Assembly: GCA_017444065.1 (NCBI GenBank)
Contig: JAFSXJ010000140.1
Span: 1-37,070 of the forward strand
Origin: Paludibacteraceae bacterium
GTDB lineage: Bacteria > Bacteroidota > Bacteroidia > Bacteroidales > Paludibacteraceae
DNA length: 37,070 bases
Direction of reading: 5' to 3'
Shown here: in pieces, positions 7,773-34,962 of the stretch
Numbering within the stretch: the stretch's first letter is position 1
How the letters are laid out: each line of letters opens with the position of its first letter
Notes under the pieces: model-generated
Seen by the model: the letters and a program-made list of their open reading frames with translations, nothing else
What the model was told of the DNA's origin: nothing
Databases searched by the model: none
Translations under genes and position numbers: made by a program

Positions 7773-7801
7773 AAAACTCTTAACTTTCCACTTTTTAACT
7801 A

Positions 7802-7836
7802 CTCTATACTCTAAACCCTAAACTCTAAACTATTCA
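7802..7836 (-). repeat. 7-bp tandem units between adaptor and pump genes
   Basis: On the plus strand the units read CTCTATA, CTCTAAA, CCCTAAA and CTCTAAA, ending with a degenerate CTATTCA. The array fills the adaptor-pump gap and runs over the stop of the adaptor gene. The telomere-like look of CCCTAAA is incidental. Confidence 0.7.
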
Positions 7837-19617: not shown

Positions 19618-20496
19618 TCAGTATTTGCGTGTAGCGCGTGTGAGGCGGCGCTCCATGAGGATGTGCGGGATGTCGGCTTCAATGAAGACGGAACCGACCG
19701 TGTGGAAGCGGAAGTGCTTGTAGAACGGTACGGCTTGCTGCTGGGCATGCAGGCGCAGTATATCCGCGCCCTGCCGGCGTGCCTCGGCAATGAGGTGCGT
19801 CATGAGCAGACGCCCGAAGCCCAAGCCGCGTTCGGTGGTGAGCATGCGTCCGACACGTATGACACGCGGCGGTGTTTCGTTGTGGATAGCCTGTTCGTAG
19901 GTCCTCTCGTCACTATAATCGTTGAACAGGCGCGCGTATGCAACGACCTTTCCCTGTTGGCGAAGGGAGATGTGCGTTGCGGTGTAGTCAATATCGTCCT
20001 CGTCGAGGTATCGGATGCCCTGTTCAAGGACAAAGACGACGAACCGCGCCTTGAGAATCTCGTAGATGTCGGCTTGTGAGAGTTTGGCAAAGGGCTTGAT
20101 TTCCAGTGTTATGCCTTTGGGAATCGGCGTACGGGCAGTAGGTTTGAGCAATCTGGGCGGCTTCTGCAGCAAGAGTTGCTCTTTGACCTTGCGATAGGCG
20201 TACTGTCGCGGTGTGACACATTTGAGCGAACTGCCGACAGGCAGCGAGCGGTTGTACTGGTCCATTTCCTGCGCAATGAGTTTGTACTGCTCGGGGTCCG
20301 CCAGCATCGGATTGATGACGGTGTTGATCTGGCTGTGGAGTGCGCGGGCATCTTTCTGCGCCTTGGTGGCAGGTCCCTTATAGGGATTCATGTGGTAGGT
20401 ATGTTCCTTTCCATTGCGAACGCGATGCACATCGTCGCTTTTTTTGTTCTCTTTGCCGGAGACAATCGAGCCGTCAACTCTTCTTACTTTTGCCAT
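19618..20496 (-). CDS. GNAT acetyltransferase (ElaA-like) fused to a Bacteroidales N-terminal domain
   Basis: Of the 292 residues, the C-terminal part (about 128-292) is an ElaA-like GNAT: ILKARFVVFVLEQGIRYLDEDDIDY, AYARLFNDY, then the acetyl-CoA loop VGRMLTTERGLGFGRLLMTHLI and HAQQQAVPFYKHFRF. The N-terminal 115 residues are a separate basic unit with YHMNPYKGPATKAQKDARALH, a phrase I associate with short Bacteroidota proteins of unknown function that carry a KxNGKxHTYH-type start. The substrate is unknown. The leader is long (about 240 nt) and consists largely of an 11-bp array (20567-20731) behind the promoter at 20743-20774. The ion-channel gene follows 26 nt later. Confidence 0.8.
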   Translation of the reverse strand: MAKVRRVDGSIVSGKENKKSDDVHRVRNGKEHTYHMNPYKGPATKAQKDARALHSQINTVINPMLADPEQYKLIAQEMDQYNRSLPVGSSLKCVTPRQYAYRKVKEQLLLQKPPRLLKPTARTPIPKGITLEIKPFAKLSQADIYEILKARFVVFVLEQGIRYLDEDDIDYTATHISLRQQGKVVAYARLFNDYSDERTYEQAIHNETPPRVIRVGRMLTTERGLGFGRLLMTHLIAEARRQGADILRLHAQQQAVPFYKHFRFHTVGSVFIEADIPHILMERRLTRATRKY

Positions 20497-20566
20497 GATT
20501 TTATGCCTTAGAGTATATATACTACGTATATATAGTATTTGTTCACTTTACGTTTTTTGAGGGCTT

Positions 20567-20731
20567 TATCCTACGGTTATCATATGGGTATGCTACGGTT
20601 ATCCTATGGTAAGACCTGCCCTTTGCCCCTACTTTTGCCGTACTTTAGCCGCTATCGGAATGCAATCAGGTTGTAGTCGGGTTGTGGCCGGGGTGTAGTC
20701 GGATTGCAGTCGGGGTGTAGCCGTGGGTGCA
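20567..20731. repeat. Fifteen 11-bp phased degenerate units in a 5' leader
   Basis: Cutting every 11 bases from 20567 gives TATCCTACGGT, TATCATATGGG, TATGCTACGGT, TATCCTATGGT, AAGACCTGCCC, TTTGCCCCTAC, TTTTGCCGTAC, TTTAGCCGCTA, TCGGAATGCAA, TCAGGTTGTAG, TCGGGTTGTGG, CCGGGGTGTAG, TCGGATTGCAG, TCGGGGTGTAG, CCGTGGGTGCA. The phase never breaks over 165 bp, while the unit changes through at least three sub-families. The array starts at the predicted transcription start of the GNAT gene and lies in its untranslated leader. A TATA-rich palindrome, AGTATATATACT (20512-20523), follows near the ATG. Confidence 0.85.
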
Positions 20732-20742
20732 CAAACGACATG

Positions 20743-20774
20743 CAAAGGTACAAAAAAATTTGCATTCATGCAAA
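20743..20774 (-). promoter_or_regulatory. Promoter of the GNAT / ion channel pair
   Basis: On the minus strand, TTTG at 20774-20771 and TACCTTTG at 20750-20743, spacer 20 bp. The inverted TTTGCATGAATGCAAA (20759-20774) overlaps the -33 element. Confidence 0.7.
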
Positions 20775-20831: not shown

Positions 20832-20863
20832 TTTGCAAATGTCAATTATTTTTTGTAACTTTG
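20832..20863 (+). promoter_or_regulatory. Promoter of the LRR protein gene
   Basis: TTTG at 20832-20835 and TAACTTTG at 20856-20863, spacer 20 bp. It is divergent to the GNAT promoter. The leader to the ATG at 21316 would be about 445 nt and is full of direct repeats. Confidence 0.7.
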
Positions 20864-21080: not shown

Positions 21081-21219
21081 ACACACGCTTGGCGAGGCGT
21101 GTCATTTCGGACAGGCGGACGGCCTGACGATATATGTGGAGCACTCGACCACTACCTGATAATCTCAAGTTACGATTACGCATTCAAGAGCCTGGCTCAC
21201 TACGCCCTCCACAAGAGGT
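21064..21219 (+). pseudogene. Possible small gene remnant with a frameshift
   Basis: From ATG 21064 a frame reads MKHFYKHTLGEACHFGQADG and ends in TGA after 31 codons. A neighbouring frame then continues in coding-like fashion as DHYLIISSYDYAFKSLAHYA up to the 7-bp repeats at 21215. Together they look like one short gene broken by a frameshift, or a leader peptide followed by chance sequence. No family is recognised. Confidence 0.25.
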
Positions 21220-21291
21220 CAGAGGTCAGCAGTCAGCAATCAGAAGTCAAGGGGCAGAAGTCAGAGGGCAGAAGTCAGAGGGCAGAAGATA
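21215..21291 (+). repeat. Eleven 7-bp tandem units before the LRR gene
   Basis: The units are GAGGTCA, GAGGTCA, GCAGTCA, GCAATCA, GAAGTCA, AGGGGCA, GAAGTCA, GAGGGCA, GAAGTCA, GAGGGCA and GAAGATA. The array ends 24 nt before the ATG at 21316. Confidence 0.88.
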
Positions 21292-21315
21292 TGCAAACTA
21301 CAAATGCACGAAGAT

Positions 21316-24300
21316 ATGAAACCATTTTATTCACGAAATCTGGCAGCAGTGATACTTGCTGCGACGTTAGGAGTTATTGCTTCTCAACCTGTACAGGCAC
21401 TTCAACTGTGGCCGGTACAGATGGATGATGTAACGCTGATCAACTTCAGCAACATGGTAGTTGCGGACTTCCGCAATGGTCAGAACGACAACTATGTCGC
21501 AGCGCGCAACAAGACTTACATCATCAACGACAGCCTGAACAGCCTGAACTTCTTCGGTCAGTACGGCTATCTGTCCTATATCCTGAACAGCACCGACGAG
21601 ACGCCGGGTGTGGATTTTTACTTAGGTGACACGTCAAGCGTGAATGCAGCGACGCGTCTGAAGACCGCCATTGTGAACGGCGACGACACGTACTACCTGC
21701 ACTTTGCCATCAAATCGACGGACAACGCCGCTCATGCCATCTATACGTTCAACGATGTGAACACCACCATCCAATTCAGTCCTTACTACTCGGGCTGGAC
21801 AACCCAGGAGACCGGCGGCAGAGCATACTATGTGAGCGACTTTGAGCGCGACGACGAGTGGCACGAATATTTTGTACCGATGTCGGACTTCGCGAGCATA
21901 TTGTCCAGCAGTCAGGGTTCCAGCACAACCGGCGGCACTCAGATGAGTTCGGGCGATATGATTGTCAGCTTTATCACACCTCAAGGCGAGAAAGGCAACC
22001 TGCTGAATCTGGATGCCGTATTCTTCTGCGACGAGGAGTTGCGGAAGGTGCTCCAGTCCAGCGACACGACCGGTACCGTTCAGGAGCAAGAGCCCGTGAC
22101 GGGAATGTGCGGTGACAGCGTTTACTGGACGTATTATCCTTATCCCGGGCAAGGAATGCTAATGTTGTCAGGCCAAGGCACGATGTGGGACGGCGAGATA
22201 ACCAAGCAGTATATCGAATATGCGGACAGCATCGTGACGCTAATCGTTGACGATGGCATTCGGGAAATAGGCGACAACGCATTCTCGAGTTATCCTGCAT
22301 TGCAGACGGTATCGCTGGCGGGTAGCGTCCAGACCATCCGTAACGATGCCTTCAGCGGTTGCACATCGTTGCAGTTCGTAGGTATGCAGGAGGGTTTGAC
22401 AACTATCGCTGAATGGGCTTTCAACGGTTGCACATCGCTGAATTCTTTGGAACTGCCGAGCACGTTGACCAGTATAGGAGACGAGGCGTTCAAGAACTGC
22501 AGCGGCTTTCATATTATTATGAGCGAAGCCATCAACCCGCCGAGTCTGGGCGATAGTGTGTTTGCAGGTGTTGACAAATCCATTCCGCTGTATGTACCAG
22601 AGACCTCGATGGGCGTATATAACACAACAGCGGGCTGGAGCGACTTCAAGAACATTCAGGCGATAGGTGACTCAACAAACGTTGAATTTCCGAACGGCAT
22701 GTGCGGCGATAGTGTAACTTGGATGTTTGAAGAAGGGGAAGGCTATCTGATAATCCAAGGCAGCGGTGCGATGTGGAACTTCAGCGATGCCTCTGCCGGA
22801 TATTCGGATTACAGCCGGAGCACAGCCGCCATCATCATTGACGAGGGCGTAACGAGCGTGGGCGACTTTGCTTTCGAGCGTTTCACTCAGGCAGCGATGA
22901 TTTCTTTAGGTCCGGACGTTCAGTCCATCGGTCAGAAGGCGTTTGCCGCCTGCACGAGTATAACCGGCATCTACTGCCAGCCGAGCACTCCTCCGACGTG
23001 GGGTGATGCCAATGTATTCAGCGGTCTGGATGTTGCGCAGCCGATAATTTATGTATATCTGGATTCGTACCCGTTGTACAAGCAGGCTGAAGGCTGGAAG
23101 GACTTCACGAACTACAAAGGTATAGTGGGCGACTCGATAGTTGACCTCACGACGCCTGTTACGGAAGAGGAATATACCGGCATGTGCGGCGACAGTGTGA
23201 CGTGGACGCTAAAAGGCAGGACGATGACCATCAGCGGTTCGGGCACAATGTGGGACTACTCGGCAGAAGCACCCGCCATTTATTCGGAGTACATGCAACA
23301 GATTGACACCGTGATGGTAGAAAGCGGCGTGACGACGCTGGGTGCAAACGCGTTCAACGGGTTCCCAACGCTGAAACTGGTTGTTCTGCCCTACGGCATG
23401 AAGACGATTGGCGACAATGCATTCACGGACTGCACATCGCTGACGTTTGTTCAGATGCCGCAAGACCTGACGACGATAGGTGCTAGTGCGTTCCAAGGCT
23501 GCGAGAACCTGTTCGTTCAGCGCTTGCCGGAGACTTTGTACAGCATCGGTGAGAATGCGTTCGAAGCTTGCCGGAGTATAACGAATCTGGTTATTCCTAA
23601 CAAAGTAAACATAATAGGCAACGAGGCGTTCCTGCAGTGTACTGGTCTGCAATCGGTTGTTCTGCCCGAACAGTTAGGCTCTATCGCGCCAAATATGTTC
23701 TCGTTCTGCATGAGTCTGGAATCCGTGCAACTGCCGCAAGAACTTGGCACCATCGGCGACAATGCATTCTATGCATGCCAATCGCTGAGGAGCATCACTT
23801 TGCCTGAAACGCTGGATGACATTGAAGGCGGCGCGTTCGCAATGTGCTATGGCCTGAACTTCATCCAATGTGAAGCGGTTTTGCCGCCGACATTGTGGGA
23901 CAATGCAGATAATCCAGTGTTCAACGAGGTTTCGGATTCGATACCGGTTTATGTTCCTGCGGAGGCCGTTGAGGCTTATCTGCACTCTGACTGGAACTAC
24001 TTCAAGAACATCCAGGCTATCCCGAGTGACACAGTTGTACCGATTGAGGTGACCATTTTCGGTATAACAATTACTCCAGACGACAGCACGAGCACGGAGC
24101 CAATTGACCTGCTCGGCGACTCGACGCTGGTTTATGACCCAGAGGAAAACACCTTGACGTTCAACGGCTTAGAATGGGAAGTTGGCGAGGAAGAGACCAC
24201 TGTTATCAACTATACCGGTAGCGACCCGCTGACCATCGTGCTGAACGATACATCCACGATTATGGCCGATACAATTATTGCTTCGGCAGCAGACATCATC

Positions 24301-24795
24301 ATCACCGGCGAGGGTAAGCTGGTGGCTGAAGGCACGGTGCCTATCGTAGGTGTTAAGTCCGCATCGATTACGTTCGACTCGGTAACGATGCATGTGCGTT
24401 CCGTACCGACACCACAGGCTTTGCGTCGTCGAATCAAGAGCGGCAAGCGTCTGGACGAGACGGGCGGTCCGGCATTGTCGGGCTTCGGCAGCGCGGACTT
24501 CAACAAGACGAATGTATCGCCGTCGGATGCCTCGTACGGTCCGGTAACGACGACTGACGACAACGGCGAGGAGACGACGATTGACGCCCTGTACACGACA
24601 AACGAGGACGGCGAGCAGGAGGTAGTGACGGAGTTTGACCTGACGGCTCAAGCCGATGACACGGGTGTGGATGCAGTGCGTGTACGCCATGACTTCGACC
24701 CGTCGCAGCCGATGTACAACGTGCTTGGTCTGCCGGTGGATGCGACCTACAAAGGCATCGTCGTACAAGGCGGGCAGACTTACCTTTTGAGGTAG
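21316..24795 (+). CDS. Large secreted BspA-like leucine-rich repeat protein
   Basis: This 1159-residue exported protein has a signal peptide MKPFYSRNLAAVILAATLGV up to about residue 28. ATG 21316 is preferred over an ATG four codons upstream, which would put acidic residues first. Residues 30-255 form a beta-rich module (FYLGDTSSVNAATRLKTA, WHEYFVPMSDF). Three large repeats follow, each opening MCGDSV (residues 264, 462, 623), then a GSGTMWD strand, BspA-type LRRs (IGDNAFSGCTSLQ pattern) and a closing PPTLWD/YVP..A segment. A beta-rich region and the tail MYNVLGLPVDATYKGIVVQG, a type IX-like signal, end the protein. It is likely a cell-surface adhesin or ligand binder. The nuclease gene follows at once. 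Confidence 0.88.
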   Translation: MKPFYSRNLAAVILAATLGVIASQPVQALQLWPVQMDDVTLINFSNMVVADFRNGQNDNYVAARNKTYIINDSLNSLNFFGQYGYLSYILNSTDETPGVDFYLGDTSSVNAATRLKTAIVNGDDTYYLHFAIKSTDNAAHAIYTFNDVNTTIQFSPYYSGWTTQETGGRAYYVSDFERDDEWHEYFVPMSDFASILSSSQGSSTTGGTQMSSGDMIVSFITPQGEKGNLLNLDAVFFCDEELRKVLQSSDTTGTVQEQEPVTGMCGDSVYWTYYPYPGQGMLMLSGQGTMWDGEITKQYIEYADSIVTLIVDDGIREIGDNAFSSYPALQTVSLAGSVQTIRNDAFSGCTSLQFVGMQEGLTTIAEWAFNGCTSLNSLELPSTLTSIGDEAFKNCSGFHIIMSEAINPPSLGDSVFAGVDKSIPLYVPETSMGVYNTTAGWSDFKNIQAIGDSTNVEFPNGMCGDSVTWMFEEGEGYLIIQGSGAMWNFSDASAGYSDYSRSTAAIIIDEGVTSVGDFAFERFTQAAMISLGPDVQSIGQKAFAACTSITGIYCQPSTPPTWGDANVFSGLDVAQPIIYVYLDSYPLYKQAEGWKDFTNYKGIVGDSIVDLTTPVTEEEYTGMCGDSVTWTLKGRTMTISGSGTMWDYSAEAPAIYSEYMQQIDTVMVESGVTTLGANAFNGFPTLKLVVLPYGMKTIGDNAFTDCTSLTFVQMPQDLTTIGASAFQGCENLFVQRLPETLYSIGENAFEACRSITNLVIPNKVNIIGNEAFLQCTGLQSVVLPEQLGSIAPNMFSFCMSLESVQLPQELGTIGDNAFYACQSLRSITLPETLDDIEGGAFAMCYGLNFIQCEAVLPPTLWDNADNPVFNEVSDSIPVYVPAEAVEAYLHSDWNYFKNIQAIPSDTVVPIEVTIFGITITPDDSTSTEPIDLLGDSTLVYDPEENTLTFNGLEWEVGEEETTVINYTGSDPLTIVLNDTSTIMADTIIASAADIIITGEGKLVAEGTVPIVGVKSASITFDSVTMHVRSVPTPQALRRRIKSGKRLDETGGPALSGFGSADFNKTNVSPSDASYGPVTTTDDNGEETTIDALYTTNEDGEQEVVTEFDLTAQADDTGVDAVRVRHDFDPSQPMYNVLGLPVDATYKGIVVQGGQTYLLR

Positions 24796-34874: not shown

Positions 34875-34962
34875 TGCTTATGATTTTGATTGTTGCCTAC
34901 TCTTTATCGGATTTTCGGCTTGCTCCGCTTGATATCTTGTTTGGTATATATTATACACGAAA

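Follow-up and report, generated by a model that had tools for sequence, protein, structure and literature searches.

The 11-bp array at positions 20567–20731 of the window (the whole stretch of 37,070 nucleotides analyzed here, from a Paludibacteraceae bacterium) is best explained as one part of a dispersed, cis-acting DNA element of ∼150 to 200 bp. Judging from sequence comparisons, the array is probably part of a helix-phased site that is recognized at the DNA level by a putative factor beside promoters. The architecture of the element, the quantised spacing of its parts, the orientation bias of the flanking genes, the phasing to promoter-like matches, and the coherence of the core within each genome were all established at the sequence level. 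The results suggest a previously undescribed intergenic element of gut bacteria from one group, many of which come from ruminants; the titles and abstract openings of the open-licence papers listed, a weak negative, contained no description of it.

One 11-bp register spans three sub-arrays

The self-identity of 20567–20731 at lag 11 was 0.584, as compared to a mean of 0.266 (SD 0.038, z 8.5) for shuffled sequences. None of 5000 shuffles matched this value at any lag from 5 to 25, and the lags from 2 to 21 other than 11 all gave 0.325 or less. The original prediction, made from the sequence of the window, described an 11-bp period held over 165 bp while the unit drifts, and so called for an autocorrelation peak at lag 11 in comparison to shuffled sequence. 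The period and the peak are borne out by these values, and the smooth drift is not: the identity of adjacent units fell to 2, 3, 4, and 4 of 11 positions at the joints between units 4 and 5, 5 and 6, 8 and 9, and 14 and 15, respectively, so the array consists of three sub-arrays (A, B, and C) in one common register. When shuffled separately, the sub-arrays were matched in 11 (A), 741 (B), and 0 (C) of 5000 shuffles, with 0 of 5000 for B and C together; sub-array B taken alone is within chance and A, C, and B plus C are beyond it.

Sub-array A (20567–20610) is the core of the element and is made up of the four units TATCCTACGGT, TATCATATGGG, TATGCTACGGT, and TATCCTATGGT, the third beginning with TATG. 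Sub-array B (about 20611–20654) has units of the CCCTACTTTNG type (CCCTAC-type) and aligns without gaps with most of the other copies in the source genome. Sub-array C (about 20655–20731), with units of the TCGGGGTGTAG type, seems to have arisen by local expansion of the element's last unit, as judged by eye from three other copies (L003, L004, and L008).

The array is part of a larger conserved layout

Alignments of 53 and 29 copies revealed a common layout of an AT palindrome with arms of 9 to 12 bp, a spacer, four 11-bp units, and a trailing 11-bp array. In the window, the palindrome TATATATAC-TAC-GTATATATA occupies 20514–20534, 17 bp from the start codon of a GNAT gene, and a spacer of 32 bp (20535–20566), belonging to one of three length classes, separates it from the array. 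The original prediction had noted neither the palindrome nor the four-unit core, and neither the dispersed family nor the phasing to promoters. The run of canonical units was four in 101 of 121 non-redundant elements and two in 17, the third unit falling under the threshold in the latter; runs of one, three, and five units were seen in one element each. In canonical cores the third unit mostly starts with TATG, and position 4 of that unit was G in 46 of 73. With a palindrome finder that demands perfect arms and ignores unit sequence, strong lag-11 repetition adjoined 147 of 304 palindrome sides as a clearly separate mode.

Beyond the four-unit core, the CG dinucleotides of 145 elements had their main peaks at offsets 7, 18, 29, 40, and 51, with lesser peaks near 1, 12 to 13, 24, and 34 to 35, and the first 44 bp of the trailing array had a lag-11 identity of 0.48 versus 0.22 to 0.27 at other lags. 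The trailing array keeps in step with the core even though genomes differ in their unit sequence, in agreement with the earlier proposal that the phase is kept while the unit changes. At two loci of one genome (L029 and L181 of G027), the palindrome is accompanied by arrays of a wholly different unit, AGTGCGTGATT, at the array position.

Palindrome and core are separated by steps of about one helical turn

A scan of palindrome-to-core spacings from 0 to 150 bp, in which repetition was not demanded, placed all 151 non-redundant elements in three classes of 22 to 24 bp (4 elements), 31 to 35 bp (138), and 43 to 46 bp (9) with none elsewhere, the fetching of loci favouring the middle class (the pattern allowed 21 to 51 bp, and the covariance model R1, built from 29 aligned copies, was based on that class) and the minor classes coming from few lineages (four copies in the 43 to 46 bp class are from the source genome and two in the 22 to 24 bp class are from one genome). 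An earlier count of 121 non-redundant elements was confined to a search range of 18 to 47 bp. The classes differ by approximately one helical turn, and the extra 11 bp of the long class in the source genome was, by eye, unlike a copied neighboring unit. A second set of 60 fetched regions yielded 25 new elements, several of which came from genomes also represented in set 1, and the spacing was 32 to 35 bp in all 25.

Promoter-like matches appear to lie in phase with the element

Promoters were scored as matches to TTTG N20 TANNTTTG, which we take to be the Bacteroidetes-type consensus, and the term refers below to such matches, not to mapped start sites. A promoter-like match was located within 220 bp on the palindrome side in 65 of 121 set-1 elements. 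Using one value per left-gene cluster, the distance from the palindrome to the −33 motif was 19 to 22 bp (21 clusters), 30 to 33 bp (8), or 42 to 47 bp (4), with zero values at 23 to 29 and 34 to 41 bp; after 47 bp, the next value was 65 bp. The best period for the 67 left-side distances was 11.4 bp, which was reached by 0 of 2000 jittered sets, and periods of 11.4 and 11.1 bp were obtained for the distances of at least 28 bp (n = 46, p = 0.0035) and at least 60 bp (n = 34, p = 0.018), respectively. Rightward promoters on the right side, which had played no part in forming the phase idea, gave a period of 11.1 bp (n = 48 gene clusters, p = 0.0020); those at distances of at least 120 bp gave p = 0.06 (n = 26). 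The leftward promoters past the array also had a period of 11.4 bp (n = 20, p = 0.011) and are not independent because they largely represent orthologous GNAT loci. As a control, the distance from −33 to the start codon was analyzed (n = 46, p = 0.125). The linker between the palindrome and the far promoters is not itself an 11-bp array, with an identity of 0.32 at lag 11 and 0.33 and 0.315 at the neighboring lags.

The phase was predicted before set 2 was fetched, and the prediction was borne out by that set as a whole, with a mean cosine of 0.64 (n = 18, u = 3.83), or 0.57 for the distances of at least 28 bp (n = 14, u = 3.00). The result was weaker when set 2 was limited to genes absent from set 1 (n = 11, u = 2.26) and was not significant for such new genes when their distances were at least 28 bp (n = 8, u = 1.30).

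The palindrome-side gene was assigned in 97 of 110 cases, with 13 unassigned, and 80 of the 97 pointed away from the element, a count that includes orthologues, with the 80 genes forming 66 clusters; in set 2, it read away in 17 of 24 (1 of 25 unassigned). Flanking genes at the other sites differ between most copies and have a mixed housekeeping look, as judged by eye from their N-termini, so that no clear regulon emerges in support of a regulatory site. With a step of 11 bp equal to about one turn of DNA in the cell, the spacing classes, the common register, and the promoter periods would fit the earlier suggestion that the array presents one DNA face to a protein.

The element is dispersed within one genus, and its core changes in concert

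BLAST located ten more similar places in the source genome, where R1 matched 12 times in all, and up to 21 R1 matches were found in other genomes. Within the genus, 60 of 121 genomes (source included) were R1 positive, 42 with a best E value of 3.6e-9 or better and 18 with weaker values. BLAST also detected similar DNA in 23 of 61 genomes, in some cases through the palindrome alone; all 23 are of the same genus, and the 24 genomes from 24 other families gave no match. In wider R1 searches, whose size calls for stricter filters so that weak matches are lost, 6 of 150 genomes in a family sample were positive (five of the same genus and one of another) and 0 of 197 other genomes in an order sample (1 of 198 counting the source genome). 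A pattern scan of named genomes returned 85 stretches; the 80 listed belonged to MAGs of Paludibacteraceae or other Bacteroidales, many from ruminants, except one (L065), which was a chance match to the pattern without a palindrome. Intergenic lag-11 six-mer matches numbered 137 versus 13.0 expected in the source genome and 217 versus 19.0 in the genus, ratios that are biased upward because the source-genome stretches and part of the genus stretches were picked on hit-bearing contigs, and 28 versus 30.6 in other families. Arrays comparable to that of the window were thus found elsewhere in the source genome and in its relatives in the genus.

Such dispersal could also result from the copying of a mobile MITE- or REP-like repeat that ends up in intergenic DNA near promoters, its arrays having no regulatory role, and we consider this main rival unlikely. 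The copy numbers and the different genes flanking most copies are in line with it, and the element sequences bear on it in both directions. For the 12 genomes with at least three elements, the core identity was 0.94 within and 0.81 between genomes, the spacer identity was 0.57 within and 0.40 between genomes, and the left flanks were 0.38 identical within genomes. In one genome (G065) the core was 96% identical, the spacers 46%, and the left flanks 38%, and in another (JAILDU) the values for core and spacers were 0.94 and 0.35; the spacers of these two are about as unlike as those between genomes. A concerted change of the core amid unrelated surroundings would be as expected from a co-evolving trans-acting factor, with gene conversion limited to the core as a further alternative. 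In three genomes the spacers were alike too (0.82 in G128, 0.72 in G000, and 0.68 in ONHW), which looks like recent copying, and by eye three loci of genome G034 (L249, L250, and L266) have ∼200 bp or more in common, extending to the flanks in L250 and L266. Copying is indicated by these long shared stretches and by the spacer likeness. In four element regions no strong terminal inverted partner was found, and one weak 13-nt, 85% pair brackets L260. Against a mobile repeat, no Y1 transposase match was present in G000, G001, G004, and G006, which have 12, 7, 13, and 17 R1 matches, respectively. Moreover, helical phase to promoters, and a place at the GNAT start that is retained in 22 of 24 loci, are not what one would expect of a neutral insert.

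A RAYT/REP origin was not supported, since Y1 matches occurred in 42 of 121 genomes and in none of the four named above. An origin from a phage or plasmid was not backed either: the viral contigs contained no exact match to the pattern of the element, and the window copy had no BLAST match in plasmids or phages.

DNA structure and slippage as alternatives

A supercoiling-sensitive structure that operates with no dedicated sequence-specific protein, based on cruciform extrusion or melting of the palindrome and on DNA bending by the phased units, appears more unlikely still. It would agree with the presence of 40 distinct palindromes across sets 1 and 2 and with a perfect-arm palindrome in 56 of 60 regions that were fetched by a model without that demand. 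Its period also fits, as a passage of one report (PMC4132750) links the ∼11-bp periodicity and phased AT-tracts of bacterial genomes to negatively supercoiled DNA, and the period of the element is likewise about 11 bp. That periodicity is a genome-wide dinucleotide bias, whereas the feature described here is a discrete, conserved, and dispersed element, and its core is conserved base by base and is coherent within genomes, which is probably more than bending alone would need.

An ordinary slippage minisatellite, in which new units copy their neighbors and then diverge so that the period is kept while the sequence drifts, is improbable as an account of the whole. The similarity of units in the window array does drop with their separation, from 6.4 to between 2.0 and 2.9 of 11 positions, and the genus has other arrays, of 11-bp and of 7-bp units, that lack a palindrome. 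On the other side, the core mostly has four units, lies at set distances from the palindrome, and keeps a register common to lineages with different units. Free variation in copy number or position was not observed for the core; the trailing arrays do vary in length, as seen by eye. Slippage probably explains sub-array C and is already disfavoured for the core.

Four 11-bp arrays (L147:16512–16566, L163:10455–10487, L166:15674–15706, and L166:8660–8736) have no palindrome nearby, so the lineage also possesses 11-bp arrays outside the element; their units recur in the source genome (TTTGTCGGGGT and CCTACTTTAGT types) and resemble sub-arrays C and B. Heptamer arrays are located at 21214–21288, 1722–1757, and 7801–7831 of the window, and the genus sample contained 185 intergenic lag-7 six-mer matches versus 15 expected. 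Slippage may supply the raw material, with the element as the conserved part.

The GNAT locus of the window

The gene at 19618–20496 (minus strand) encodes a 292-aa protein with an ElaA-like GNAT domain in its C-terminal half, preceded by an N-terminal part (residues ∼1–115) for which no family hit was obtained. This part (20152–20496) belongs to a small-protein family that often has several members in a genome, occurs in 26 of 35 genus genomes searched, and is not covered by any Pfam or NCBIfam match. A leftward promoter of the form TTTG N20 TANNTTTG is predicted at 20743–20774 on the minus strand (−7 at 20743–20750 and −33 at 20771–20774), to the right of the array, and therefore the element would lie in the 5′ leader of the GNAT gene, where the original prediction had placed it. 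A second such promoter is predicted on the divergent side at 20832–20863 (plus strand). A gene for a BspA-type leucine-rich repeat protein (1163 aa, 21304–24795) is divergent from the GNAT gene. Seven related neighbor proteins, two of them at the same element, form a cluster that includes far-side genes at other GNAT loci.

The GNAT gene was found in 25 genomes (three copies being cut off by the contig or the match), with the start region visible in 24. The element is upstream of the start codon in 22 of these 24 orthologous loci, that of the window included, and its unit sequences are quite different among them. The palindrome is 15 to 17 nt from the ATG in 21 of the 22 (again including the window); in the remaining locus it is 20 nt away, with the stem found only in part. 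Of the 18 set-1 rows for this locus, 15 had a leftward promoter scored past the array. R1 matched in each of the 25 genomes that carry the GNAT gene, a co-occurrence that may reflect shared descent as well as function, and in 35 of 96 without it (17 of the 35 strong), and the N-terminal family was present in 13 of 16 element-positive versus 13 of 19 element-negative genomes. The GNAT protein is thus not required for the element, and it was rejected as a required binder.

The fixed position 15 to 20 nt upstream of the ATG, together with the promoters beyond the array, could point to an RNA leader element of the GNAT mRNA, a reading to which we give very little weight because no folding excess was found for the predicted leader (z +0.37) or for the minus (+2.08) and plus (−1.03) strands of the array, because an Rfam scan of the window matched nothing at the element, and because the palindrome-side promoter-like matches in 65 of the set-1 elements would leave the array outside the leader of the gene concerned. 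The repeated RNA structure suggested by the original prediction is not supported by these folding values. Covariation on one alignment (A2) gave no information, as 10 of its 11 pairs are invariant. The sole Rfam match in the window was a DUF805b cis-regulatory RNA (RF02914) at 34894–34928 on the minus strand.

Relation to known systems

The parC site of R1-type plasmids, which is bound by ParR, contains direct 11-bp iterons, and phased resolvase sites have a core-to-accessory-site spacing in whole turns. The element described here resembles these sites in its direct 11-bp repeats and whole-turn spacing and differs in residing on chromosomal contigs, in many copies, with a link to promoters. 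The operators of CarH, the MerR/B12 photoreceptor repressors of Thermus, Bacillus megaterium, and myxobacteria, consist of direct repeats of 11 bp, three or four in tandem, to which a tetramer or two dimers bind on a single face of the DNA (PMC9304148). The four-unit tandem run of 101 of 121 elements is similar. The CarH motif TnnACA, however, was present in at least three units of one register in 0 of 146 cores, so that by its motif the element is not a CarH operator, and it differs further in its palindrome, its trailing array, and its roughly 12 dispersed sites. No binding protein was found; MerR_1 domains were detected in 118 of 121 genomes, with and without the element alike, and are thus not informative. 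BrickBuilt, a MITE of Porphyromonas gingivalis, is described in PMC4596501 as having 23-nt units, small inverted-repeat ends, and varying copy number; like the present element it is intergenic, multi-copy, and tandem-repeat-bearing and is from the order Bacteroidales, whereas the units of the present element are 11 bp long, its palindrome is one-sided, its core mostly has four units, and its spacing is phased.

Proposed function

We return to the preferred reading of a DNA-level binding element beside promoters. The dimer-type palindrome, the four core units, and the trailing array would all share one face of the helix at its intracellular winding of ∼11 bp per turn under negative supercoiling. 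A sequence-specific oligomeric protein, or two such proteins, may read the palindrome and the core, and the resulting complex would act on promoters at whole-turn distances, in most cases from an upstream position and with a regulatory or architectural role. The copy at the GNAT gene, which lies between the predicted promoter and the start codon, could be an autoregulatory or roadblock site. It is in this sense that we infer the binding protein, the sign of its effect on transcription, and a possible connection with the GNAT protein. A bolder proposal, which we advance tentatively and with real doubt, is that the element belongs to a lineage-specific DNA-architectural system whose putative oligomeric protein reads the palindrome plus the stacked one-turn repeats, co-evolves with the genome-specific units, and acts on promoters up to ∼200 bp away only where these are in helical register with the element in the supercoiled chromosome.

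If the preferred reading is correct, a regulatory or architectural system would accompany a variety of genes in a single bacterial lineage, its recognition sequences changing together within a fixed geometry. The phase that numerous unrelated pairs of element and promoter have kept would then allow the helical repeat of cellular DNA (about 11.1 to 11.4 bp) to be read from natural sequence.
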